This document shows, one piece after another, positions 3,936 through 61,557 of a stretch of DNA of 64,000 nt. The DNA is from Fragilaria crotonensis (taxonomy: Eukaryota; Bacillariophyta; Fragilariophyceae; Fragilariales; Fragilariaceae). Position 1 is the stretch's first letter. Every line of letters begins with the position of its first letter. The DNA is taken from contig JAKSYS010000234.1 of the NCBI GenBank assembly GCA_022925895.1, positions 17,839 to 81,838 of the forward strand, given 5' to 3'. Both the position numbers and the translations under genes were made by a program. The notes beneath the pieces were generated by a model. It did no database searches. It was not told the DNA's origin and saw nothing but the letters and a program-made list of their open reading frames with translations.

Positions 3936-5515
3936 TACACTGCAAATCGATGTCCCGAGCTCATTTGATCTGTTCTTCAACCCTCGTCATTCAACATGAG
4001 TCATTCAAACTTCAGCTGTGTGGATTCCCTGAGTTATCAGTTTCAAAACGTGTGCAGCACTTCCAGCCACGAGAGCGATTCGTTCTTGTGGTTGCTCCTC
4101 GCCCAAAGTTCGGACATTCAATGATAATAGTAACTCCTATTTGTGGTTTCTATTTCATCCGTCCTTCATTAAGGCAACCGCCATTGCACTTCCGGTAGGT
4201 TCTTGGTGGTACGAGATGTGTCGAGTCGCCTGCTTGTGGTGAGTGTATATTAGCTACTGTTGTGAGATACACTCAGCACCTACTTCACCCCGAAATTGTC
4301 CAGTCCAGCTTGGCATCCTTTCATGATGGTGTGGCTTGTATCTTGTTTGATGACCATTGGATTTGATTCGCGACCTGGTCTGATCCTCTCGTACTTGTGC
4401 ACTAACTTTGCATGCAGTTGGATCAACATATATGACTTGTCATCATATATGCGCAACTACACGAAATAAATTGTGTGCAAAGGCTCGTTCCAAGGACAGG
4501 TCCAACTACCAGTCCCATCAATCATCATCACCAGCCCATGTAACATGACCCCAGTCATCATCGTCGCCATACCAATATCCCCTTGCAGCAACACGATTGC
4601 TCGGCTTGTTTGCCTTTCATCTTGTGGTGCGATCCGGAATGACGAGGAGAGGAGTGGCTAATACTGCTCTTCATCGTTTGATGTTTATGGCCTTGTGGAG
4701 CATGTCTGATAGTACGAGAGCCGCCAGGCGATGCCCTGTGCGATGCCCTGTGCGATGGTGTCGTTAGTGGGATGGTGTTGGTGGGATGCCTTGATAGGAT
4801 GTCCACGATATCGTTTCTCGGCAAGTTCGCGAACCACAGCGTCAAGAGAGGTGCTGGCATCTTGGTGATTTGGAGGTTCGTCTTGAGCAAGATCTTGGTT
4901 TGAATCTTGGTCAACTTCAACAGAGGTTTGATCACTGAACCCATGAAGTAGACGGAGCGGGTCATACGCAGAAGCCTTTGAGACAGAAAGGAGCGAAGGG
5001 CAACGATGAAGGAGTTTAATGTAGTCGTTGTGTATGTCAGTATGATATGACGTGATGGAGCCGACTGAGGCGACAAAAAAAAACAGTTTTGACGTTTTTT
5101 CGGAGAAACTATTGAACGTGCCGCGTAATCCAGAAGGCTGGGGGTTGACAAGGAAATACGTACTGTACCAGTACAGTACCTTATGGTAACAAATTACTGT
5201 TACTAGTAGTGAAAAGTTCACAATACACTGGAGTACAAAGTGTGATATGTTGAGCATACAGTACGTTGATACAGCCAGTAGTTTAGTTCAGGGATCTGAT
5301 TCTAAATGTGTCTAATCATTCATGGATATGATTAAACTATTGAATCGTCACAGAGTATGGCCAGACGATATTGTCACGGTACCTGGTACAACAGTACGCC
5401 AGTACGGGGCCCTATCTCTATATGCATACATCTCCACACCATGCGTCTACTCGCCGATTAGTACAGTACATGGAGTACTCTTCGAATGCTGATAATCCGA
5501 TCGACAGAATCCCAA
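3936..5515. other. Gene-poor stretch with one doubtful minus-strand ORF
   Basis: No recognisable gene. A minus-strand ORF at 4685-5257 could encode 190 residues with an acidic, Gln/Asp-rich middle; part of it comes from a short direct repeat around 4732-4756, and an overlapping frame (4558-5151) is equally open. Neither has a domain I know. AT-rich sequence with many GTAC words fills the rest. Confidence 0.3.
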
Positions 5516-12804: not shown

Positions 12805-13500
12805 TGGTGATGAAAGGAAGAAGGAGGAGATGGTGGTGAATCGCAATTGCACTCAATTGATGAGCAGATTAGACAACTCGTGAGTCTCCAACGATTACTG
12901 TTGGCGGCGGAATTGGCAAGTGAGACTGGAGTGAAAGAACAACAGCATTTTGCTGCTTCACCAGGACTTGGTCCTGCACCCGTGTCACACTTTGTAATCT
13001 GGCGCTACTTCAAGTGTCTGTGGGTTTATATGGAAGAACAGTCGTGACACTGGGATTCGATACGGATTCGAATGCTGAGAATGGAACATGTTTGCTGCCA
13101 CAGCATCGCTTCACAACGGGAGATGAAGTACAAGTATTATCCAAATCATCATCATCATCATCATCAACAATCGTCATTTGAAAATGTGCACCAGAATCAA
13201 CACCATCAACACAACCAACAGCAACTGCAGCTTCCGCAACAACAACAAATCCTTACATCCCGATCGTCCCGAGTCGCTTGCAATAACAGAACTCATTCAA
13301 CAAGCTGTTCTCAGCATCACAAGTACAAGATTCTCGTCGCGGCTCCCACCCAGAAATGTCGCAATTGATAATGTCTTGGAACGCATCGTTCAATCCCAAC
13401 AGCTTCAAAACGACAGCAGCAACATCAGTATCAAGAAATCATCAGCATCACAGATTTGGGTAGGTCGAATTGGGCAATCTGCAAGAATCGGAACCACTCA
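12805..13500 (+). pseudogene. Second decayed 5' fragment of the helicase gene
   Basis: Similar to 18650-19700 of the intact helicase: SIDEQIRQLVSLQRLLLAAELASETGV is nearly intact at 12850-12930, followed by frame changes, loss of the Walker A segment near 13275, and a recognisable NVLERIVQSQQL stretch near 13370. Similarity ends near 13495, at the same helicase position as the copy at 5516-6470. Not a functional ATPase. Confidence 0.85.
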
Positions 13501-46780: not shown

Positions 46781-48040
46781 AACTTGAATGAAAAAATCCT
46801 GTTATACACTTCCATATCCGGGACTGGAGTGATCGCATGACGAAAAACCAAGATCTACATACACATGCATACATACGACAGACTCCCAACTCCCAAGGCG
46901 TTTGAAGAGTTTGAAGCAAAAGCATGTCGTTGCGCGCACAGCATCGTGGTCCGTGCACAGTGCATAGTACTTCAGGTAATGGTACTGCTAGGACACTCTC
47001 TTCTGCTACAATACTACTGTACCAATGTACTGAAAACCATACTCCTCTGCCTTTAAGGACTGTTACACCTAAAATGGAGGCAATTTGAGGATCAAGGATG
47101 GTGAAAAGAGGAGTTTCAGCATCGGAATGATGTTGATAACCGTGTTGTTGTCACCACTTTTTTGCTTGATTGGCCTGTCGCTCCCAACCGGCAAAAAGAT
47201 CTCTATCACTTGTACCAAAATGCCATCAAATGTTTTGGCATGGACTACGACTTCTTGACAATGCGAAAATTCTACTCGACACTAGTCAATGCCATCCAAT
47301 ACATGGTATGCAGCAATTGTAGTCTCTTCTCTGCCAAGACTGTTGAGAATTTGTACACTCTGGAGCCTTAGATCAACATCTTCCTCAATAAGTGTGCCAC
47401 AAACATCATGTTGATAACATGATCAACCATTGCTATTGGCTTCTATCAAAACAATTTCCATGGTGATGCCAGTTGGGTGATGAATGGTGCTCATGATCAA
47501 TGCGTGCCATGCAAGAATGTTATTCTATAAGCATCTCTTAAGAACCACTATATTTTGCTTTTAGGATGAACATGAGATTCCGTCAAAATCTCTTCAAAAC
47601 CGAGGAGCAATTTACGGTACACTCAGGAGTACTACAGTACCCCATGTGCCTGGTACTAGCACTCCAGTACTTGCACAATTATTACTTAACAACACGGTAC
47701 AAGGACTGTAGACTGTAGGACGCAAATGTACTGGAGTACTGTACCGTACTCCGTACTTTGCAGTGTCGATCTGTCCGATTTCGAGGATGAATTCTCACCG
47801 TCCGTCGTTCGTGCTTAAATCGACTCGAGAAGACAATCCCCACCACCGATTTCGCCTCCATGGATTTCTCGTTTTCAAGTGAAATACGGGTAAGGCGTAC
47901 AGTACTATCGTCCAACTTCGGCAGCGACGTTGCCAGTGTATCAATTGTACGACCAATTTCCATACACTCGTTCCATTTGCAGAACAGTGTCATCAACAAC
48001 AGCAATCATCCACAACAACATCTCTTTGTAAAGCAGCATC
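46781..48040. other. Spacer with one ORF remnant (47100-47371, plus)
   Basis: An open frame over 47110-47371 reads like protein (NRVVVTTFLLDWPVAPNRQK, LYHLYQNAIKCFGMDYDF, VENLYTLEP) but has no start and no domain I recognise; it may be a transposon remnant. 47580-48040 is the GTAC-rich upstream region of RLP24. Confidence 0.3.
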
Positions 48041-48588
48041 ATGAGAATTGAAAAGTGTTACTTCTGTTCATCACCGTGTTATCCTGGTCATGGAATGACA
48101 TTTGTTCGTAACGATGCGAAACAATTCCGTTTCTGTCGTTCGAAATGTCATCGCAATTTCAACAAGAAGCGCAATCCACGAAAGGTCGCTTGGACCAAGG
48201 CCTTTCGCAAGACCCGGGGAAGGAAATGGCTGTCGATTCCACGTTTGAATTTGAAAAGAGACGAAATCGACCAGTCAAGTATGATCGTGATCTCATGGGG
48301 AAGACCATATTGGCCATGCAGAAAGTACAACAGATTAAGGAGAGTCGTGAACAACGATTCTTTCAAAACAGAATGACTGATGCCAAGGCGGAAAAGAAAA
48401 AGCAAGCAAGAGTTGAAATTGAGAAATCAATCGAATTGTTGGCTCCAGCTGTGGCGAAGAGAGAGGAAGTCATGAGGAATGTGGTCGATTCGGCGCGTGC
48501 CAGAATTGCAGCTCGAAAGAAGAGTTCGGCACAGAGACTTACCGTGACTGGTGCTGGAATTGGTGGTGCGGATCAAATGGAGGAGTAG
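48041..48588 (+). CDS. RLP24: Ribosome biogenesis protein RLP24 (L24e family)
   Basis: [20 protein letters not shown] at the N-terminus and [12 protein letters not shown] carry the four cysteines of the L24e zinc fold; [13 protein letters not shown] and [20 protein letters not shown] are RLP24 hallmarks that distinguish it from ribosomal L24e. The protein acts in the nucleolus on pre-60S particles and is later exchanged for L24. About 182 residues if one break is bridged: in the GGGG run at 48216-48219 one base is missing, changing frame between FRKT and KEMAVD. The decayed copy at 25945-26378 has the same GGGG. It faces LRR copy B. Confidence 0.87.
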
Positions 48589-49002
48589 GAGTAGGAACTT
48601 GCTTTTAGTAAGACTTGTTTACATTGGAATAACTAGAGACGATTTGGGCTTGGAAATTACCCGACCCTGACAACAAATTAAACTTGTATGTAATGGCTCC
48701 ATCGTTGTGGTGTACTCCTCTACTACGGTAGCTAGAGTGATCGACAATAGACATGGTGGTGTAGTCGTACTGGAGTAAACATTTATAATTACTGGAGACG
48801 ATTCGAGCATGGAAGTTACCCGACCCTGGCTGTCCAATCAACGTTTGCTTGGTAGTACCCATTATCCATCACGCATCATACAATTCCGATCCGATCTCAA
48901 GCTCACGCACGTACAGCCTCGTGTGCCTTTGCCTTGGTGCCTTCATCCATTCTTCCCTTTATTCATCCACACATTCATTCGTTTATTCGTTCATTCATTC
49001 CC

Positions 49003-50391
49003 TCAGCTACAGAGAGAACCATCCTCATAACGATCCCAGCAGCAACCTGAAACACATGTAACTTCAAAACAGTCAACAATGATAAAGCTATACCCGTCGC
49101 TAGGAGTGATTGGGCAGAGCGATGACGGAACTGTCCCTTGCAAAGCATTATTGGAGAAATCCAACCACGTCAACTGTGTCAAGAATCCGATCTCACTTGG
49201 AATTGTGGAAGTCAACAAATTGTACGAGAAACCTAGTGCCGTCAACTGTGTCAAGAGTCCGATCTCAGTTGGAATTGAGGATGTCAACGAATTGACGCCG
49301 AAATCCAATGCCGTCAACTGTGTCAATAAACCGATCTCACTTGGAATTGTGGAAGTCAACGAATTGAAGTTGACGTTCAAATACTTCAACTGCGTCAAGA
49401 GTCCGATCTCACTTGGAATTGTGGAACCCCTCGTAGTGTCTTGAAACCCCAAGGCCGATCGACACACATTCACGTATCGCATGGAAAGAAAGTTGCAGGC
49501 GATTAGTTCCGGCGTCAAGACGGTCGGTTCCAAGGTCGGAGGCGCTGTGGTTGGTACCCGCGAAGGCGGCGCCGTGATTGGATCCGGCGTGGGAGATGCC
49601 GCAGTTGCTTCGGCGGTTGTGGGCGCTGCTGTCGTTGGAGCGCTGGTGGGGAGCACTACCGTTATTGGTGAAAACTTGATATGGGGTCGCCGTGATTGGT
49701 TCCGGGGTCGCGGGCGCCGCAGTCGGATCGGGTGTGGTGGGCGCTGCTGTACTTGGGCCCCGGTGGGGCTCCCAGGAGTTGGTGAAGAAATTGGCGCTGA
49801 TATGGGGGTCGCTGTAATTCGTTCTGGGGATGTAGTTATAACAGGGGTGGGGACGTCAATGAAGAGCTGCTTGCTGCAGATGGGGGTCGATTGACAAGTA
49901 TTACCAGTGCCACCACCGCGCCAACAAGACAGCACACAAGCAAGATACTGCCCACCAAAATCAATCGATACACGGGACGTCGATACCATTGCGTGGGTAC
50001 TCGATAGGCTTCCACAATGTCTACATCGCTTTCGGCAGCCATGCGATTGCTGTTGTGCCCACTGGTATATTCTCCTGCGGAGTCTTCATTCGTTAGCTGT
50101 CTGGGGGATCATACGCACTTATTGGAGACAGGAATGTTCCATTTGTTGCAGTATTGCGCGATGGTGGTGCCAAGGGAAGTGCTCCGGCAGTGCCGTCTTG
50201 ATTCCTTGCATTAGAAACCGGAGGCCTTCCGAAGAGTCTGCCATTCGAATTCCGGTTGAAGGTATTGGTTCATTCGGTGGTGCATGTTCCAATCTTTTTT
50301 TACCACTAGCACTTCCTTGGTTGTGACGTTCAACCGTTGAGGCTGCCGGTAACGAAGCGATCGCAGAGGAAGTAGAAGGAGCCGATGACAT
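49003..50391 (-). pseudogene. LRR membrane protein, copy B (frame badly broken)
   Basis: Start ATG at 50391 by comparison with copies A and C (RLEHAPPNEPIPSTGIRM aligns with LELAPPSEPMPSPGLRM). Membrane span LILVGSILLVCCLVGAVVAL, a long Thr/Pro/Ala linker, then about five LRRs and the cap FEVTCVSGCCWDRYEDG. At least five frame changes: two in the N-terminal part (about 50225 and 50105), one in a GGGG run on plus (49843-49846), and two in the linker (about 49740 and 49680). It is shorter in LRRs than A and C and more divergent. Either a decaying gene or a poorly resolved sequence. Confidence 0.7.
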
Positions 50392-50921
50392 GGCCGAAGC
50401 GATCGCGATTGATCTTCAAAGTCCTTGCAACCAGTTTTCCTCCGATAATCCGAGTACAACTCCTAGTGTGCCAACAATGCACAACTTCTGTAGGACTCGT
50501 CGCGTCCTTGAGAGGCAAAAGTAAACGCGAAAAATGAAGTGTAGGTGATGCACTGCTATCATCAATCAGCAGCATTATGAGCTGAGAACTATCATGATTC
50601 ATCCGCAAGGAAAGGAGGCAATCAAAGGAATCGGAACGTTGGTGAATCGTACCTGGGTTATATTAGAATTCGTACGTATGACCTTCATGCCACGACATAT
50701 CGCAAAATAGTTGGATCTTTTCTGTATCATACGGGGTATGCATACTTGTACTGTCCTGAGTGTCGCGTGCCGTGTACGACTGTAAGTTAATAATCCAGTA
50801 GGTCTATAGACGGGAGCAGTACCGGTACAATACCGGTACCTGGTACTTGTACTCTATACTCTGAGTATGGACATCTGGGGTCGGGACTCGGTAGTTGGGC
50901 ACACAAAATAGCGATGAGCAA
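50392..50921. other. Divergent promoter region between LRR copy B and the JmjC gene
   Basis: No ORF. It contains GGTACAATACCGGTACC near 50831, AGTATGGACAT near 50864 and a TATATTAGAAT stretch near 50660. It must hold the start regions of both genes. Confidence 0.4.
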
Positions 50922-52440
50922 ATGAGCAAGCACGAAGATGGGATCAATGTGAATAGTTCTTCACATCATTCGTCAGTTAAAGTGAAACAATGTGATAAAC
51001 ACCAGCTGCAGATACTTCAGCCAAGTCAGGTCAAGAGATGCAGAAGAGACGGCTGCGACGTCGACGACGAGAGTGATAGTAGCGATGGCGAGGCGTGGAA
51101 CGTCAGGAACCAGTATGTTGGATTTTCGCTAATACCGTCATCATTGACGGTCTCTGGTACTGGTGCAACTGGTAGTAGTTTAGGTACTTGTACTGTCGAA
51201 ACGAAGACTAAAACAGGCCCCAACATCGTCACCATGATCCCAAGTTACGTTCCAAACGAATATGGTGATTCTGACATTCACACGAACAAATTTCCACAAA
51301 TTCTATGGAACGATTGCATCTCACAACGTAAGCCTTGTGTGATTCACGCCCTTCAATACTCGCTAATGATGAAGACGACGATGATGATGCCTGTCGAGCT
51401 ACGAAATCGCTGGTGTTAGACAAGGAACAACTGATCCGAGTGGCGGGCCAGGAACTAGTCCAGGTGGAACGTCGGCTGGATGCTCGAGAAACATTTGGTC
51501 AGTTGCGATGTCCCGATCGACAATTGATGATGAAAGTCCAGGATTTTTGTCAAGCGCTAGAACAATCAGATGGACATTTGCTTTATCTATCCACACAACT
51601 AACGGACGATGATGAGAATGGTGATAACGATGTGGCTAGACCAATCGTAACGACTCCATGCAAACAACTGATTGACAACAAAATCATTCCAAACACGTTG
51701 TCATGGGCAGGAAATTTGATACTTCAATCGTGCAATCTGTGGATGGGAACAAATGGCGGCAGTGCTGCCCACACCGGGACGAGTTCGGGGTTGCATCACG
51801 ACTTTCATGACAATTTTTATGTCTTGTTGCACGGATCCAAGACCTTTCGACTCTTTTCGCCCGATTGCGCTCCGCACATGAAGACTTATGGGGAGATTCA
51901 TCGCATTCATCCAAATGGTCTCATTAGTTATGTTGGTAGTGAAACACGACCGGACGGTCTGCCTGTGGAACAAGCAACAGACGACCACGATGACACGGAT
52001 GTCGAACAGCACGACACTGACGAGGAAGCGTTGTATGGCAAGGGCTTTGGTGAAGAGAGTGGAAGCGATACAGATGGCGACGAAGACAACAATGTTTCTG
52101 GGAAAGGAGCCAGGGACGACTTTGACGAAATGTGTGGCCAAGCCGATGACTCGAGTCGGAGAGAAAACCCAACAACTTTTCTCGGATAGACCTGCGAGGC
52201 CGTTCCCTTGAGGAGTTGAGAACAGAGCACGAAGGATTTTCGTGTGTCAACGAAGCTGTTGTGCATTTGAAAGCAGGACAGTCACTTTACTTACCAGCTG
52301 GTTGGTTCCATGAAGTTACGAGTCAATCTACAAAGGACCATTATCACATGGCTCTCAACTACTGGTTCCATCCTCCGGACAAGATGGACGACTTCAGTTG
52401 TCCGTACACTGACAAAGATGCATTCGGGGCAATCAGATGA
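50922..52440 (+). CDS. JmjC-domain protein (2-oxoglutarate/Fe(II) oxygenase)
   Basis: ATG at 50922 (MSKHEDGINVN). The N-terminal part is Ser/Asp-rich. The cupin-type JmjC fold follows: NDCISQRKPCVIH, LYLSTQ, NLWMGTNGGSAAHTGTSSG, the metal-binding HHDFHDNFYVLLHGSKTFRL (H-x-D), and YLPAGWFHEVTS with the third ligand His. It most resembles the JMJD7/FIH-like group of protein hydroxylases. An Asp/Glu-rich insertion (about 51975-52110) sits inside the domain. Two breaks, each a missing base in a short run, lie at CCC 51349-51351 and TTTT 52177-52180; about 506 residues if bridged. Beyond the TGA the same frame stays open for about 45 codons (to about 52586), also partly seen in the decayed copy at 61925. 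Confidence 0.78.
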
Positions 52441-53147
52441 CAACGATTCGTTGATAGATTGTATACTAAGGCGCACTCTTGGCTCGTTCCGACACACGAA
52501 CGATGGAGTCTCGCGACGAGGAACGTCGCTATTTTATTTGTTTGTTCATTGTCACAGCGACGACCATCGGCACTTGCAGAATGGTGACGTGTCGGAAGTT
52601 TTGTACTTTCCAGCTCACGCTTTACGCATGATACGTCCATGAAAAGCGGTGACAAATACAATGAGGAATATGACCAACAGCGCCTTCCCATTAATGTGGT
52701 AGCTTATAGTATACGACATTACACTAGAGGACTCGACAAGATCTCAACGCCCTCGGAGTCTACTCCAGTTGTGTATCGACGAACCGATCCACGATAAGAC
52801 TCCCAATACCTCTTTCGGAGAGGCTCCATTTCGCACGTAGCAGTTGATTCATTGTCAATGATGGAGCAAAGACGAGTAAAACTAGGCCTAATAGTAAGTT
52901 AACCCTAGTAGTCTTGTTCTATTTTGGCAATCTGGTATATGATCGTTGCATGCATAGTTTCCTTTCGGATTGACCTGCCTTGATTTGGCCGTTCAGAAAT
53001 TTGGACAACACGTCGATACGACATACGACTTTAACGGCACAGACGAGAAGAACAATCGTTATTCCAATAAACTACTACCTAATGTTCATCGAAGTACACG
53101 GCGTATGACGTGTATGCCTGGTTCTTGTACTTCAGTGCAGCAACACC
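52441..53147. other. Spacer between JmjC and Hint-protein genes
   Basis: Segment 52770-52870 recurs at 62440-62545 (both contain AAGACTCCCAATACCTCTTTC). No gene seen. Confidence 0.45.
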
Positions 53148-54831
53148 CTAATGGATTTTCAGCTTCACAATACCGCCGGCGGTCCTGGTCTGGCGCTGCT
53201 TCTTGAATGTCACCACGGATGCGAGGATGACCAAAGCCATGACAGTTGGACCCATGACTGGTCCGACGATACACTCGAACAAATAGCAAAAGAAAGAAAA
53301 CCCACACAAGCTACAAAAGAGCACAGTTCCAACTGCCACAACGCCGAAGCCATGAGTGCTGGAATGCATCCACCTGTCGGATGTTTTGTAAGCTAAGGAA
53401 AGGACGTTCCTTCCTTCCTTGTCCGCAAGCATGCCAAACCATGGTGAGATTCCAAGAGATGCAAGGCGGAGGGGACTGTGTCGAATATGACTAAACGCAT
53501 TGATTGACATGATCTTGTGTTTGCCCCACAAATACACATAATCATGTAGGTCCTCGACGAGGGAGTGAGATTGCGGTAAAGCGTAGCTTGAGGCAACAAC
53601 TCCATTGACAACAATAGTACCATCAGCGGTGAGTGGTGCATAGAATTCTTTTTTCATAACACTATCTTTCTTGATAATCTCAAGCGCGGCCTGTGTGGAA
53701 TCCGCGCCAAGAAGGACATCACCAACCTTTAAGAATTCAGACACCGCAGGAATTTCCTGTTGATCGAAGCGAAACACAAAATGACGCGACGAGATCTCGA
53801 GTGGAGCAGAGGTACCATTTGTGTGGAGACGGATGTACACAGGGGATGCATCAATCGACCAATGGTTGAAGCGTAGATAGGATGAAATTTCCCACCCATC
53901 CCAAGAACACAGTCTCCAATCTTGACATCCCTCATTCTCACTTGACCCTTCCCGTGGACCGTGACGATTGCGTCACCAGGGAAGCAGTTGGTTTGGCTGT
54001 AGGTGCTGCGGTTGGTGCTTCGGTTGGTGCGGCGGTTGGAGCGTCCGTAGGTGCAGCGGTAGGTGCTGATGTAGGTGCTGTTGTCGGTGCTGTTGTAGGT
54101 GCTGCGGTTGGTGCTGCGGTTGGTGCTGCGGTTGGTGCTGCGGTTGGTGCTGCGGTTGGTGCTGCGGTTGGTGCTGCGGTTGGTGCTGCGGTTGGTGCTG
54201 CGGTTGGTGCAGCGGTTGGTGCAGCGGTTGGTGCAGCGGTTGGTGCTACAGTAGGTGCTACAGTAGGTGCTGCGGTTGGTGCTGATGTAGGTGCTGATGT
54301 AGGTGCTGGTGTAGGTGCTGATGTAGGTGCTGATGTAGGTGCTGATGCAGGTGCTGATGTAGGTGCTGATGTAGGTGCTGATGTAGGTGGGGCGGTTCGT
54401 GGGGCGGTTGGTGGGGCGGTTGGTGCTGCGGTTGGTGGGGCGGTTGGTGGGGCGGTTGGTGGGGCGGTAGGTACTGATGTAGGTGCTGCAGTTGGTTTTA
54501 CCTTGCGCTTGTGCTTAGATTTGCGGGCAGAAGGTTTGGCGGTTGATGCAGTGGTTGGTGCGGGACTATGCGGTTTTTTCTTGCGCTTGCGCTTGGCTTT
54601 GCCACGCGCCTTCTTGAGGCCACGATGGATTACAGTGCCGGAATTCTTCCTCGAGAGCACAGAACTGGATCCCTCGATCTTGACAGCGAGGAAGCCTTCA
54701 GTTGTGCTGCCAGTTGTGGTCTCGAAGATAACGGAACTCGTGTCCTTGACAATAGAAACAGCATCTTCGACAGTGATGTCGAGGCCTTGGACAGCAACGC
54801 CAAAGATGACGATGAGAACAGTGAGCTTCAT
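53148..54831 (-). CDS. Signal peptide, Pro/Thr/Ala repeat, Hedgehog-type Hint domain and membrane anchor
   Basis: MKLTVLIVIFGVAVQG is a signal peptide. A domain of about 70 residues follows, then two Arg/Lys-rich stretches, then about 45 TxAP units (PTAAPT, PTSAPT). The Hint domain begins CFPGDAIVTVHGKG (near 53985); its Cys is the expected nucleophile. Further motifs are RDVKIGDCVLG, PLEISSRHFVF, VGDVLLG, FYAPLTADGTIVVNG and VVASSYAL. This is the Hedgehog C-terminal type, in which the Cys cleaves the chain before itself and transfers the N-terminal part to an alcohol. The tail has two hydrophobic spans near 53200-53350 and ends QRQTRTAGGIVKLKIH. One base is missing just before the catalytic Cys (about 53986-53990) and one near 53869; about 561 residues if bridged. 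Confidence 0.8.
54000..54490. repeat. 12-bp coding minisatellite in the Hint-protein gene
   Basis: About 40 units of GGTGCTGCGGTT and variants (GGTGCTGATGTA, GGGGCGGTTGGT) on the plus strand encode the PTxA repeats on minus. The length is a multiple of three per unit, so copy-number change keeps the frame. Long-read support is needed for the true length. Confidence 0.95.
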
Positions 54832-55302
54832 GGCAGCTGAAGCTTAGGAGAGACGAGCAACAACACCTGCACTCCAAACAACGTGTGTATTGTGAGAATC
54901 TTCACCCAACGCAGCATGAGTACTAAATTCCAAGTACGCAACGATGTCTCCTGGATCTGACATCTGCAACGCTACTCAGCCTTCTTGAACGAATAAACAC
55001 AAAAACACATTTTTCAAGGCACAATTACACAAATCTGTAACGTTCGATAACGGCAGCCCGCCACAACTTTGTCTCCCATTATTGAAAGCTGGCCTATAGC
55101 ACTCGTAAACCCATACATAGAAGCGTTAAATTTGTCGTGTGCACACAACGGAAAAGGTGCACAGCATGTGCGTATGTTATATGTATAGGTACACATACAC
55201 ATAAATGCGCAATCGTCACCTTCGTTTCTTCTCCCTCGAATACTCGCAATACTCCAAGTTCACTTGTCTGGTATGATACGAGTACCATACTATCATAGTA
55301 GT
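54832..55302. other. Upstream region of the Hint-protein gene
   Basis: No ORF or RNA gene recognised. It ends at the ATAA target duplication of the following transposon. Confidence 0.4.
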
Positions 55303-55306
55303 ATAA

Positions 55307-58300
55307 CCCCAGTGCGAAAATTCCGTGCGACAAAAAAGACGACAAAATGTTGAAACCCAATAACGGAGGAACAAACCATTTGATTCTGAAAAGTGCGATC
55401 TGTAATGCTTTTAACCTTCTTCCTATATCTGTGAGGATAACTTCCTAATCATGATGCTCGCAAAGTTACAACATTGCAAACTTCATCAATTTTTTTCGGA
55501 GTTCGCACGAGTTTGTCGCATGAAAAAAGCTAGCATGCGACAAAAAAGTACGACTATTGAAAAATTAACACGAGGAGACTCGCGGTGATCACATTGACAC
55601 AATGATGTTCAGTCTTAAAACCGCCTTATTGGAGCTCTCCTTGGTCTCAGCGATCTGAAGTCTTCGTGTTACCACAGGAGTAATCCGAGATCGAACTCTG
55701 CGAGGAGCAGGTGGCTCCTCGTTTTCCTGAGAAGAATCATCTGGATTCACTGAACCTCGATTCGGAGGTGGTGGTCGGTTTTGATGCGGGATGACGTGAA
55801 CCACAGCATCCATCTCGGCTGTGCAATAGTCTACCAATGATCTGCTTGTATGAAATAACTCATGGCAGCTCCTGCCGTTGAAACGCTTGACACGACAAAG
55901 GCTGACCATGCACACAGGACACATGAACTTCGTCGTACGACCATGCCTGCAGTGCTTCGGATCGGGTTGATCATGCCTCTTTCTGCAGCACCAGACACAG
56001 CTTGTTGGTTTTGATTCCACTTTGCATAGAACATGTGGCAATGACTGGTCCAATCGTCTTTGAATCATCTCGCGACTTGTGAAGTACAGCTCGCGCTTGT
56101 TGTATGTAACAGACCTTCCGCTTGTGTTCAGAACACTTCCTTCTCCCGTCTGCTGGATGCTGATACCACCATCATCTCCTCCTTCACTGTCGCTGCTGTC
56201 ATCACCTGAAACCTCGAGTGTTAGGTCTTTAGCAAGAGAACTGCAGAACTTTGAAAAAGACCCATACAGCTTTCGGTGTGCCTGGAATGCAGCATACAAA
56301 TTGCACCCATCACTTAGCAGGAATGCAACAGAGCGACTGAGAATGTAGCTCTGATATGCATTATAAACTCGAGACATCAGAAGACGAAGCCATATGTGTG
56401 CCAATGGTGAGAGCTGTGCATGCCGAGCATGGCAGTTCTTCATGTACCGCGAACACATCAACAGGACCTTTGCTTCGATTCCACATTGCTACAATGGTCG
56501 GAATCAACATGCGTCCTGCTGGCAACGGTCTGCCCTGGTCTTCACAAGATTATAGATTGCTCTCCATAGTTCCAACGTATTTTGAACAGTGTACTCGTCA
56601 ACTGCATGCCTCAGCTTCATTCCTCCCAAACACGGTAAACGACCATGAAGTACCCAGGAAAGCTCACGATCATGTACCTCTTGCAATGCACATCGATATT
56701 GCTCAACCACCTGCTCATCAACATTCACATGAACAACACGAATTATCTTGTGCAATGATGCCACCACATAGAAAGCATGTCGCAGATTGCCACATGCAAT
56801 GCCATGCAACAATTGACACCTGTACTGGGCTCAGGAATCATTCGTTTAAAGTCGTCGTTCGTAGGAGGATCCGTCATAACAACATAAATCGTTGGACACG
56901 TGCCGTAGGTCCTGGCCAATGCGGTCTCTTTCATTACTGTTGCGGGGTGCATTTGCTCTTGATCTCCACTATGAAAGGAATACCTTCTCCTCGCCAAATA
57001 TGTTTTCGTTCTCCGCAACTGCAATCGCATCGGGCGAGAATGCTGCATAGAACATACCTTTTGCACATAACAAGCCATATTCCCTGATATGTGTCACAAC
57101 GAAATCGCTTTCCTGATCAAGAAACAGGGAAGTCTTGACAATACATTTGACTCATTGAGGGTACCTTCACGCATTGAGGTCGATGAGGCAAGGGCGACAT
57201 AAACCACTTCTCCAGAAGAAGTTCCAGTATTGGGCATTCCCGTTTGACTGATCAGATCCTCCCCATGAAAGCACTCTATCAATGAGAATTGTTTTGCTCC
57301 CTGTCACCAGCAGAGATTTCGCTCGGCAAATATCTTTAGGTGTGCAACCGACAACCCCACTAACTCATGTCTACTGTAAATCCGATCAGCCACAGCCTCA
57401 TTTGGAATGAGTTCATCGAGCATTTCAACCCAAGTATTTTACAGCTTGACAGGATATTGTGCGACAGCTCCTCCACTGGTGACACTGGCGGTGTAACGAG
57501 CCCGATGCGCATAGCGCTTCCATAGTGCAAGAGCAGTGGTTCCAGTAATTGAAACTGACGCTGGTTGAACCATTCTGGAGATCGTTGCGTATCTGTCAGC
57601 TGCTCAACATGGTCTGCTTCAAACAGTCTAATTACTTCATCATCTGTAGGTTCTGGAGCGACATCGCATCCTCGTTGTCGGGTTACAAGGGTAAACTTTC
57701 CCGGTCCGTACCTGTCATCAGTCGTTTGCATGAGAACCACCCGGCCTAAGCCGTTTCGACTGGCCAGTGCATATTGATGTGTAACTCTTGAACCATTTCT
57801 TATCGCCTTCGTAGCCCAATAATGGGCTGATGCACCTTTCTCTGCAATAAGCCGCCGGTCTGGGCCCGGATGTTGGTCGTATGTAAAAGGGAACGATCGC
57901 ATTCTCTTTGTTGTTCCCAAAAGCATAGCTCCAACCGACACACTCCACTGGTTGACTTCTCCATTCACTCCACCATATCCTCGATCCCAGAAGAAAGTGT
58001 TGCCATCGAGTCGGATTTGCGATTCGGATGATACGCCTGTCATACTCCTCTGCAATATTTTCACACAGTCCAAAGTTGACTCACCCCGAGCTGCAACATG
58101 CCCGCCAATATACAAACCAGTGACCACTGACACTGCTCCATGATGAATGACTCCTAACCCTTTGCAGGGGTTGTTGATCTGTGAGAACCCGTGATTGATG
58201 ACCCTCTTGATCGCATCCGAAGTAAGTCATCGTCCAAACCAACTTGGGTCACTCCTGCAACAAAAGCTAGCTCTGACCCAGTTGAACGAACAATTTCCAT

Positions 58301-59277
58301 TGCTGCAGCCATTTCTCTGTCATGCTGCATAGGAGGTGTCCAAGTTGATGCTGATTCCTGCCTTGAAGTGCCAGACCGTGACAAAGCCTTCAAGATCTCT
58401 CGGTATCGAATGAGGTCCATACCCTGTCCTGCAGATGGAAAATTTGCTCGCTCATCCATATCAAAGTACAACGAAGGGGAGACTCGGTAGAATGAGAGCA
58501 TCAATTCAATCCGAATGAAGGCAAGTATCTCTGAATTCGAGACGGAATCCCGAGATAAGTTCTTATTGATGAATTGCTTGATATGTCCCAGCAAATTAGC
58601 ATCCATCCACGCCTCTAAAAAACGAGCAGGTGCAACCTTCCACAGATTCCTGACTCTTCCGCCAAACATCTTGGCTTTCAGACGGCTAAGGACAATTGGT
58701 ACCTCCTGGCGGGCCACCTCCAGCAGATGTCGGTCTACTAAATCGATCTCGATAGTTGTCTCAAACTCTCTGATGAAGTTCCATTCTCCTATCGGTTCCT
58801 CATCGTCTGCATCATCCAAATCAGCATCACCAGCTGAACCAGACATCAAATACATCATATCCTCAAGATCAGAGTCACTTTCATCGCCACCATCACTGTT
58901 GTTTGACATGATTGAGGGGACCTTTCAAGAGCAAGAATTGATTTCTTGTTGATGCAATGGCGGGTGCTTGTTGTTGCTGCGCACTTCAAAGTGCACATAC
59001 ACCTCTGTATGAGGGTCTACAGATAATACCTACCGTATGTAGAACCTACAGTGTACAAAGACCTGAACTTTTAGTACGGAGACAGGGTGCACAACTGGTC
59101 TCTGGAATGCATGCAAGGGGCAACAAGCGAACTTCAATTGTAGGCATCAATGAGAATCGCTGAAAAACATTTGTCGCACGAAATTTCTCGCTAGCTTTTT
59201 CGTAGGACAAAAATTTTGGGATATCCCAAAACTCGGAAGAATTTTTGTCGCATGCCATGCGACAAAAAATACTGGGG
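55307..59277 (-). mobile_element. piggyBac-like DNA transposon (3971 bp) with ATAA target duplications
   Basis: Ends CCCCAGT (55307) and ACTGGGG (59271-59277) are inverted; ATAA flanks both sides (55303-55306 and 59278-59281), like the TTAA-type targets of piggyBac. Both subterminal regions have repeated TTGTCGCATG/CATGCGACAAAAA motifs (near 55325, 55508, 59175 and 59250), likely transposase sites. The body holds one decayed transposase gene on minus. Confidence 0.8.
55589..58909 (-). pseudogene. piggyBac-like transposase, frame broken
   Basis: ATG at 58909 with an Asp/Glu-rich start. LSFYRVSPSLYFDMDER and YREILKALS lead to the DDE core: LDDDLLRMRSRG (first Asp), KGLGVIHHGA, IRLDGNTFFWDRGYGG (second Asp), and HQYALASRNGLGRVVLMQT. 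After EWFNQRQFQ the frame changes; LVGLSVAHLK and LVTGSKTILIDRVLS (about 57270-57365) look like a SAP-type DNA-binding helix pair. Near 56440-56540 NRSKGPVDV matches the third catalytic region. The tail has the piggyBac-type cysteine ribbon (CVWCCRKRHDQPDPKHC, FMCPVCMVSLC, SCHELFHT; 55840-56010). At least five frame changes, including one missing A near 58158. Confidence 0.72.
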
Positions 59278-59281
59278 ATAA

Positions 59282-60049
59282 AGTACCATGCGTACAACTG
59301 AGTTGTGGCAAGCATGCGGGCAGCAAGCGGTACTTGTACTATACCAGGTACTCGATGACCTTGACCTCTTCCGTACGATGTCGGTTCATTGAGTTCACAT
59401 CTGTGGACAAGAAACTAGACTCTAGTAGACTGAAATCCAAAAATGACAAATTTGTTTTTTTGTCCGTATACGCAGGCTTATTATGAGACGAGAAGGATAC
59501 ACATACAACGTATTCATATACCGGTACTTGAAAGTGGAATTTGCTGTACAGTGATGCAACAATACTGGAGCAATCCAGTAAAAGATCAAGTCATATGGTC
59601 GTGGAATGCAGTGAAATGAATACGGTACAGGTACCAGGTAATTGCATTGTATTCCACAAGTTGCTACCTGGTACCCATTCATGATATATTTGAAAAGAAC
59701 CACTGCTGGGAAGACTTGACGACCGATGGAAGTGAAGTATTGGTTGCCTTTGACACAACTACGGTAGTATTAGATTCTGCAAAATGACGCGAACTGCATC
59801 ATGGTAAATGATGCAGAACAACGATAGCCTCTACTTTAGCCTCCTTGTTGTTGGGCCTGGATCCACCATGCACCATGCATTCAAATCTCATGTGATGCTG
59901 ATGGATGCATCGCGTATATGATGACACAATGAAGCAACGAATCGCAATTTCTAAATACATGTGCATATTCCTATCTTCCTAAAGGAGCAACCCCGGGCCA
60001 TCCAAAACGTCTTTTTCCTGCATCCAGCCAGATGGCAGCGATAGGCACA
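59282..60049. other. AT-rich spacer between the transposon and CSN2
   Basis: No gene seen. It includes the 3' flank of CSN2 and GGTACC/GTACCAGG words common in this window. Confidence 0.4.
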
Positions 60050-61557
60050 CTAATGAGCTGCGACATTGGTAATACTCCTCATGGCCCCTTGATTAGTCTC
60101 CTTCAAACGGGTACCTGTGATGAAGTTCGAGACGCCCTCCAACGCCGTCGCCATCTGATCGAGCGCGTCGCAAACTTCAATCTGGTTCGAAATGACAGCA
60201 TTCTTCGAGGAGGTACCTTTCAACAACAACACCCCATCCACTTGATCAATCTCGCCGTCCAATTTCCCATCCAGTATAAGACCCACGAGAAGGGACTCGA
60301 CATCCCGCACTGAAATGTCATTCAACTCCTTCGAAATGGCTTCCAAGGAAATACGAGTGTATGGTTGAATGACGCGTCGTAGGACTTGACGGCGAATGGT
60401 CCGAAGCAGGTCTTCCACGTGTTCTCGCACAAACTCATCCTCCATAATTCGACCTTGATTCTCTCGCAATATTTTTTCAAATGCCTGAATCTCATTACTA
60501 TGAAACGCTTGTACAAGATTCGTCATGGCAACGATTTCGGGATCATCGCGATACGGCCGCGCTTCTTGAGAATCGAACGGGTTTATGGAGGAGGAATGAA
60601 GCATACTCGCCATAACCAAGTACTTGAGACATCTCAATCGACTCGGATCTCCAGCTTCATCGTACGATTTGAATGCCTGAAAGAACGTCTTGCCTGCCGC
60701 CTCGTACTCTCTGGCTGCCAGATGCATCTTGCCTCCCAGTTCTTGGATCAAGGCAAGAGTGCGAGGATGGGGAATACCACCGCGGACCGCGAGCGCCTTT
60801 TCGAATATTTTGCGCAACTCCTTGTTATCCTTCTGGCGTGAGTAGAGCTGAATCTGAAGTGCATAAATCTCCATCAAATGAGTCGATGAGCTGCTGGATT
60901 CTGAAAATTGAGTATTCTTGAGATCTTGCAATACCAATTGAAGTTTTCCCGTTTCATTCGTTTCGTACAAGAGTTGACCATACTTGAGATTCGTCTTGAA
61001 CCACAATCGATCATTTGGAAAGGGCCCTCTCTTGGGTTCAAAGAACTTGATGGTACGTTCGTAGATTTCACTGGCAAGGTTGCGTGGATCTTGAACCCTT
61101 GACGACGAGTTTCCTTGCAGAATGGATGAGATTCTGTCCAACATACCATTGATTCCCTTTTCTACAGCGTTCGACTGACGTTCCTCGAAATGCATTCCAT
61201 CAAACGTTCATAATGACGCAGAATCTCACTTGAATTTCCAGTTCGCAAATGAAGCTTGATGAGCTGTTTCATAGCTTTGAAGGACCATTGTCCATACTTC
61301 TTTCCTTGAGAATTGACTTGTTCACTCTGACTGTCGGTAGCAATGACCTTTTCGAACGCCTGAATTGCCTCGGTAACATTGGTGTCTCGTAAGCCCTTGG
61401 CATTGTAATAATCATTTTCCATTTTGATTTCGCCATCGTCTGCCTCTTCTTCCTCGTCCGTGTATTCAAACTTATCTTCCATCTCTTCATCCTGTTCATC
61501 ATCATACTCGTACTCATATTCCTCTTCGTCGTCGTCGTCGTCGTCGTCGTCAGACAT
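60050..61557 (-). CDS. CSN2: COP9 signalosome complex subunit 2
   Basis: ATG at 61557. The acidic N-terminus (MSDDDDDDDDEEEYEYEY) is typical of CSN2, followed by NDYYNAKGL, YGQWSFKAMKQLIKLHL, RLWFKTNLKYGQLL, MEIYALQIQLYS, IPHPRTLALIQELGGKMHL and LRCLKYLVMASML. INPFDSQEARPYRDDPEIVA and PYTRISLEAISKELN mark the PCI domain. The protein is a scaffold subunit of the complex that removes NEDD8 from cullins. About 502 residues if one break is bridged (human about 443); one base is missing near 61160, giving TAG just after NVSRTL. The remainder is well conserved, so this is probably a working gene with a sequence error. Confidence 0.9.

Follow-up and report, generated by a model that had tools for sequence, protein, structure and literature searches.

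A secreted PT-stalk protein with a predicted Hog domain

The window, by which we mean the whole 64,000-nucleotide stretch of Fragilaria crotonensis DNA analysed here, carries on its minus strand, at 53148-54831, a gene for a predicted secreted protein with a Pro/Thr/Ala-repeat (PT) stalk, a Hog domain (Hint plus ARR) and a membrane tail, interrupted by frame breaks near 53865 and near 53987. The ATG at 54829-54831 lies inside a 301-codon open frame (53938-54843, minus strand) encoding the signal peptide, a small domain, basic patches and the repeats; the start of Hint, CFPGDAIVTV..., is read in a second frame, with its Cys codon at 53984-53986; and a third frame encodes the remaining Hint, the ARR and a hydrophobic C-terminus, down to the stop at 53148. 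All elements that an earlier note had described for 53148-54831 were recovered on this strand, as open frames and as Pfam PT and Hint matches.

The signal peptide (54784-54831, 16 residues), read by eye, has Lys2, a hydrophobic core and small residues ahead of the cut, in keeping with the secreted design proposed earlier. It is followed by a small N-terminal domain (LDITVEDAVSIV..., 54619-54783) without a Pfam match, found elsewhere in the genome both with and without Hint, by two patches of sequence rich in Lys/Arg (54496-54618) and by the stalk itself (53987-54495), which matches the Pfam PT repeat PF04886 at 1.7e-21. The repeat stalk claimed in the earlier note stands; compared with its count of about 45 TxAP units, the 301-codon frame holds 42 PT dipeptides, 41 T..P and 33 T.AP. 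Matches of the repeat to circumsporozoite protein were dismissed as low-complexity resemblance. The array at 53987-54495 is also open in other frames (261 and 90 codons on the minus strand, 325 codons on the plus strand). A frame slip within it would therefore be slow to meet a stop. Further along the window, a PT-rich open frame at 49006-50085 contains leucine-rich repeats (LRR_14, 1.7e-10); PT linkers thus also occur on other nearby proteins. We detected no Hedge signalling domain with Pfam at E up to 1: the first frame of the window gene gave PT alone, and the protein of the contig-173 copy described below gave PT and Hint.

Hint (53580-53986), split over two frames, is matched by PF01079 in both pieces, at 4.1e-7 (30.3 bits) for the first and 3e-10 (40.5 bits) for the second, each exceeding the cut-off of 29.7 bits. 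Its residue 1, the predicted nucleophile Cys, aligns with Cys258 of Drosophila Hedgehog. The predicted fold of the third-frame piece alone was unusable (mean pLDDT 38.3).

The frame breaks and the copy on contig 173

The window belongs to contig 152 of the assembly searched (62.1 Mb, 881 contigs), in which copies of its Hint-part DNA lie on contigs 173 (94%), 626 (93%), and 354 and 87 (two; 74-75%). The contig-173 copy (L010:2602-4338) is syntenic, with order and sequence common to contigs 152 and 173 on both flanks of the gene (window 47450-55111 and 59868-61097), and forms a single unbroken 583-codon frame whose protein matches Pfam Hint at 4.3e-25 and the PT repeat at 2.5e-25. Along the 3 kb at window 49362-52361 the two contigs differ by 13 gap openings and 1 mismatch (summed over 12 rows), six of the openings sitting in a single row of 250 bases; the adjacent cupin/JmjC gene differs by 1 mismatch and two 1-base gaps, both in the window; and contigs 626 and 173 are separated by 36 gap openings and 7 mismatches in 5,047 bases. 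Since small gaps are this frequent in near-identical contig sequence, the two frame breaks look like assembly errors, which, rather than gene death, are their most likely cause.

The breaks had earlier been named as a possible refutation of the reading of this gene; they are present in the letters given, but the syntenic copy is free of them. An intron spanning them was rejected, as the middle frame encodes a conserved start of Hint. That the window copy is a pseudogene with two frameshifts agrees with the letters as they stand, which do contain two breaks, yet we consider it improbable given the intact copy on contig 173, the similar single-base gaps in otherwise near-identical sequence there and in contig 626, and a dN/dS of 0.42 over Hint and the C-terminus between the window and contig 173. 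Across 10 pairs from five paralogues the same part gives 0.19-0.42, and it is under purifying selection. For the N-terminal part, two comparisons gave 0.52-0.61. In the last 76 codons, 6.5 non-synonymous and 0.5 synonymous changes between the window and contig 173 yield a dN/dS of 4.08, a ratio built on few changes.

Divergence between contigs 152 and 173 runs at 0.0-0.8% per 250 bases at 49362-52861 and at 2.8-12.6% at 52862-55111, a peak that takes in the Hog gene (dS about 0.11) together with the sequence upstream of it and about 290 bases beyond its downstream end. Other diverged stretches reach 4.0% at 48112-49361 and 1.6-7.9% at 59868-61097. The Hog gene is accordingly a local divergence peak, stemming either from old alleles or from gene conversion with a paralogue. 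Between the shared flanks, window 55112-59867 (about 4.76 kb) stands opposite about 1.09 kb in contig 173 (L010:1248-2341); the open reading frames at 55589-56488 and 57360-58226 (minus strand) had no Pfam match at E ≤ 0.1, and the stretch is an apparent insertion polymorphism that may represent a mobile element. The Cupin_8/JmjC-type gene at window 51332-52440 is read in two frames in the window and in one 485-codon frame in contig 173 (Cupin_8, 4.1e-29, Pfam).

The Hint domain is of the Hedgehog type, with substitutions

A PF01079 profile search of the genome contigs returned 32 Hint matches, 31 of them above the Pfam cut-off, at about 29 places; among 14 control genomes the profile matched one, below the cut-off. 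From these places we aligned 20 rows, leaving aside the window, L026, L027, L030-L034 and a third C368 copy (fragments, frame-broken or duplicate). Profile A1 comprises 17 of the rows (the 20 minus L013, L017a and L028), and the post-Hint profile A2 comprises 12, without the window clade, L013 and L017a.

The best relatives of A1 in the PDB are the Drosophila Hedgehog chains 6tyy, 6td6 and 1at0 (E 3e-21 to 1.5e-19), followed by SHH (chain 7e2i, 1.8e-15). The top match is the D303H crystal chain 6tyy (3.1e-21); the alignment to 6td6 (profile 1-195 against chain 258-464, 3.2e-20) is loose beyond Hint, where the helix motif discussed below is not lined up. MJ0781 and intein-type chains match at 8e-4 or worse. 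Vint stays under its cut-off where listed, as does Hint_2 except for L009 (32.2 against 28.4 bits; PF01079 scores 97.5 there). Inteins are defined by a C-terminal His-Asn and an extein nucleophile. By eye, neither is present here: Hint is followed by the ARR and the hydrophobic region, with no C-extein. Judged by profile, then, this Hint is closest to Hedgehog and not to inteins, Vint or bacterial Hint, which agrees with the type assigned in the earlier note.

The same note proposed a check for the catalytic Thr and His. The nucleophile Cys and the block-B Ser-x-x-His are kept in all 20 rows (Cys and His also in the window pieces), and the Cys-Phe start, Ser66 and His69 are invariant in the 17 rows of A1; the TXXH Thr (Drosophila Thr326) is replaced by Ser in 20 of 20 rows, with His329 retained. 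In the window this motif reads Ser-Ser-Arg-His (53781-53792). The end of the domain, GTIVVN...SSY, is largely kept across the 20 rows. The residue before the Cys is Gly in 2 rows and Pro in 4 of the 20, unlike Hedgehog's Gly; Pro in this position is known from intein work to be unfavourable. The general base of Hedgehog, Asp303, has His as its counterpart (53862-53864 in the window) in 19 of the 20 rows and Tyr in one. As the Drosophila D303H variant keeps its structure and activity and accepts more sterols (PMC9163320), His could be a working substitute for this general base. The place of Cys400 is taken by Ser, Asn or Thr; mutants of Cys400 in Hedgehog are inhibited in both steps (PMC4695875).

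A segment after Hint resembles the sterol-recognition helix of Hedgehog

The predicted ARR helix 1 of the window protein, FSHIRHSPLRLA (53454-53495), contains by motif comparison an H-x4-P-x-R pattern corresponding to His374, Pro379 and Arg381 of SHH. The pattern follows Hint in 17 of 21 rows (the 20 family rows and the window), the exceptions being L011 and L013, with Val for Pro, and L017a and L017b, with Arg for His. Human SHH reads W372-A-H374-R-A-F377-A-P379-F-R381-L382 (numbering from PMC7242414), with identical spacing of His, Pro and Arg; where SHH has Phe377, the diatom rows have no aromatic residue at that spacing. Mutation of SHH H374, F377 or R381 drastically reduces the cell-associated, cholesteroylated product; conservation of P379 is absolute, and deletion of the loop joining the two helices is tolerated (PMC7242414). 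The second ARR segment, GRNVLSLAYKTSDRWM (53367-53414), is a weak candidate, not significant alone: its G...W residues are 14 apart as in SHH helix 2, a spacing kept in several rows, and the HWY of helix 2 is not kept.

To score this resemblance, the profile of the 12 diatom rows without the window clade was run on Hedgehog's own helix and on 20,000 shuffles, the human sequence being entered in two parts and its loop written as X. The helix 1 score was reached by 47 (Drosophila) and 61 (human) shuffles, and that of both segments in order by 99 and 16, respectively; helix 2 alone was not significant (6,688 and 1,495). A HMMER version of the test gave 10 (Drosophila) and 24 (human) of 5,000. On a profile made without it, the window clade's own helix 1 scores weakly, reached by 4 to 199 of 3,000 shuffles, and A2 alone found no PDB match at E up to 10. 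Taken together, helix 1 is likely homologous to the Hedgehog sterol-recognition helix.

A hydrophobic region and, often, a dilysine-type ending close the proteins

After the ARR, the family proteins carry about 50 hydrophobic residues and then a basic tail. In the window, a Kyte-Doolittle scan places a hydrophobic region of 51 residues, which we read as two spans, at 53202-53354, and the protein ends in KLKIH (53151-53165), a KXKXX dilysine-type ending. The earlier note proposed a C-terminal membrane anchor; the C-terminus is not just an anchor, since the helix-like H-x4-P-x-R stretch precedes the spans and a dilysine-type ending follows them.

KXKXX or KKXX endings close 10 of 19 C-termini (L025 and L017a, cut or shifted at the C-terminus, are left aside), against a mean of 0.77 when the last 15 residues are shuffled, and none of 5,000 shuffles reaches ten; because the rows are related, this statistic overstates the case. 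The count treats separately the window and L010 (one locus), the near-identical L023 and L024, and L011 and L013; with alleles and near-duplicates merged, it becomes 8 of 16. The endings occur in two separate clades of the Hint-part tree. KXKXX ends all 7 window-clade rows, the residues around the lysines varying (KLKIH, KVKLH, KVKIH, KVKTT, KFKAA), and three rows with a PBP-type N-terminus end in KKSA. Dilysine signals (KKXX/KXKXX) act on cytosolic C-termini of COPI cargo. Such a tail could recycle the Hog protein, although two spans alone would not give a lumenal Hint together with a cytosolic tail.

Hog is joined to several unrelated N-terminal modules

The window's PT-stalk type and a Cys-rich N-terminal type on contig 368 (both read by eye) are two of several architectures in the family. 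A PBP_like_2 N-terminus is joined to Hog in L012 (4.1e-11) and L023 (2.2e-7, Pfam); together with L024, assigned by its likeness to L023, these genes on contigs 413, 121 and 33 combine a PstS-like phosphate-binding domain, Hog and the KKSA tail. L012 matches a solved phosphate-binding protein at 2.3e-10 and scores 72 bits on the NCBIfam PstS model, under its cut-off of 206.6. Peptidase_M43, a pappalysin-type metalloprotease domain, precedes Hog in L021 (3.6e-12) and L025 (2.9e-17) on contigs 12 and 78, and the C-terminal quarter of Trypsin does so in L031 (7.8e-10; L030 and L031 lie on contigs 376 and 753). In the remaining Hint genes we saw no named partner within the exon. In the Hint-part tree the PT clade is well supported at 100/99, the PBP clade at 100/100 and the Cys-rich pair at 99/93; its deeper branches lack such support, and it does not show the two M43 rows as one clade.

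Searches with a few short peptide patterns gave 30 matches in viral contigs, none confirmed as a relative, and, for the PstS-type Hog protein L012, 18 matches in prokaryote genome contigs, again with none confirmed. The genome gave no Patched match at E ≤ 0.001, with one candidate scored. It holds 19 matches (not 19 genes) to the silicon transporter family, 18 of them above the cut-off and the best at 4e-193, which point to a diatom as its most likely source; on contig 97 (29749-33762, L042), three silicon-transporter domains lie within one 1456-codon open frame.

Hint-less siblings on contig 354 stop where Hint would begin

The small N-terminal domain occurs five times on contig 354 (L048-L051 and L022), four times without Hint and once, in L022, with it. 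The Hint-less copies at 4142 and 43461, mutually near-identical, run in one frame through the repeat and stop after ...PTAAPA; those at 13255 and 17015 have the same ending, reached after frame changes within the repeat. In the stretch examined around these four copies, tblastn at E ≤ 0.01 found no Hint. At the corresponding point the Hint-bearing copy reads ...TASPA-Cys, its frame changing between the N-terminal domain and Hint in the letters given. As the Hint-less paralogues stop where Hint would start, the genome seems to make directly the product that self-cleavage is predicted to release. Among nematode genes, Hog has been lost in a number of cases (PMC2362128).

A proposed mechanism and its alternatives

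Sequence by itself shows how the domains are ordered, which residues they keep, that they belong to a family and how selection acts on it. The reading of them that we favour, with slightly more confidence than doubt, is a Hog self-processing protein whose stalk would be released with an ester-linked lipid, probably a sterol, while the Hog anchor is retained. The signal peptide would direct the precursor into the secretory pathway, the C-terminal spans would hold it in an early secretory membrane, and the dilysine tail could recycle it. The Hint Cys would attack the preceding peptide bond, an N-to-S acyl shift assisted by Ser-x-x-His giving a thioester; the Hedgehog-like helix beside Hint would present a membrane sterol or similar lipid alcohol; and the lipid hydroxyl would resolve the thioester, the active-site His acting where Hedgehog has Asp303. 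The released N-terminal part, made up of the small domain, the basic patches and the PT stalk, would then travel to the cell surface with a lipid ester at its end, and the Hog fragment would stay behind. Of these parts, self-cleavage at the Hint Cys is the one we consider probable; for the lipid or sterol adduct the case is evenly balanced, for retention of the Hog half we see roughly equal chances of either outcome, and a surface role for the stalk product is inferred.

The main rival, which we think rather unlikely though deserving of attention, is that water or a small thiol resolves the thioester and a free mucin-like stalk is shed with no lipid attached. Isolated Drosophila Hint without the sterol region does cleave by hydrolysis (PMC4695875), the window-clade helix 1 scores weakly and HWY is absent, and the Hint-less paralogues show that a stalk protein with a plain C-terminus is possible. 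Set against shedding, however, none of the 7 window-clade rows examined lacks H-x4-P-x-R, and since the Hint-less genes already yield a free product, retention of Hint suggests that something is added to it. A different view of the added group starts from the long-chain polyamines that diatoms possess: such a polyamine, or a hydroxyl of a wall polysaccharide, might take the thioester and weld the stalk to the silica matrix or wall. The His at the general-base place, which in Hedgehog widens sterol choice, could accommodate this, and basic patches with a PT stalk would suit a wall protein; yet there are no sequence signs of polyamine or sugar recognition, the adjacent helix resembles a sterol helix and the hydrophobic C-terminus favours a membrane substrate, so we hold this to be very improbable. 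We also give little credence to an inactive Hint, a structural relic in a protein that works uncut as a membrane-anchored stalk. The loss of Cys400, the replacement of Thr by Ser and the Pro that precedes the Cys in 4 of 20 rows would fit a relic, but Cys1, Ser66 and His69 are invariant across diverged paralogues (in the window clade, dS rises to about 2) and the Hint-less paralogues stop at the predicted cut.

If release with a lipid is correct, Hog may be a device that pins several secreted diatom proteins to membranes, which would explain what the Hint expansions of diatoms do and would amount to a surface-anchoring tag in a major algal group. The family would also be a test case far from animals, with cholesteroylation residues at the same spacing and a natural His general base, and with several unrelated cargoes and natural Hint-less siblings. 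A broader and more tentative proposal is that Hog is a plug-in lipid-anchoring system for secreted diatom proteins, parallel to GPI anchors: a dilysine-held Hog cassette would cut itself and pin whichever module lies upstream (phosphate-binding, metalloprotease, trypsin-like, Cys-rich or mucin-like stalk) by a sterol ester, with soluble versions arising by loss of Hog at the cut. Were this so, protein sterolation would be old and general eukaryotic chemistry and not a speciality of animal Hedgehog.

Comparison with known systems

By its Hint profile, most of its residues and helix 1, the predicted window protein is a Hog protein; it is not a Hedgehog. It shares with the Hog part of Drosophila Hh and human SHH the Hint profile, the Cys-Phe start, the TXXH His and a precursor predicted to be secreted, as well as the APxTxxGTxxV and S-S-Y / S-C-Y-A blocks and H-x4-P-x-R beside Hint. 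Unlike Hedgehog, the diatom proteins have no Hedge domain; they carry Ser for Thr326, His for Asp303 and Ser, Asn or Thr for Cys400, have an insert before helix 1, keep neither Phe377 nor HWY, and vary in the residue before the Cys. They further extend into a hydrophobic region and a basic tail that often has a dilysine-type ending, whereas the SHH sterol region is predicted to have no membrane-spanning part (PMC7242414).

Burglin (2008, PMC2362128) described Hog proteins in protists, red algae, mosses and nematodes. Like the present family, with its signal peptide predicted by eye, they combine a signal peptide, a lineage-specific N-terminus and Hog; in these, too, the Cys of motif J is often replaced, and some nematode genes are without Hog. 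The words 'diatom' and 'stramenopil-' do not occur in the main text of that paper, and its available part does not describe PstS, M43, trypsin or PT-stalk partners, a hydrophobic tail or dilysine endings. A study of diatom Hog processing was not found among the matches listed from the open-licence literature, which is no proof of absence. In that literature we did not meet the helix-1 match (H-x4-P-x-R, 17 of 21 rows), the dilysine-type tails (10 of 19 C-termini), the Hint-less contig-354 paralogues or the N-terminal partners.

Already published, as counts, are the Hint expansions of diatoms: Pleurosigma pacificum has more than 290 Hint-domain genes and Seminavis robusta 112 (PMC12803021). The present genome resembles both in its many Hedgehog-type Hint genes; in contrast to our analysis, that study, in the part available, gives domain counts without partners, residues or mechanism. 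Hint-domain proteins are also mentioned in connection with sexual reproduction in Seminavis (PMC3879662). Cyanidiophyceae have Hog, trefoil and kelch proteins (PMC13353863), which are likewise non-Hedgehog Hog proteins, multigene and of unknown function, and which differ from the diatom proteins in their N-terminal partners.
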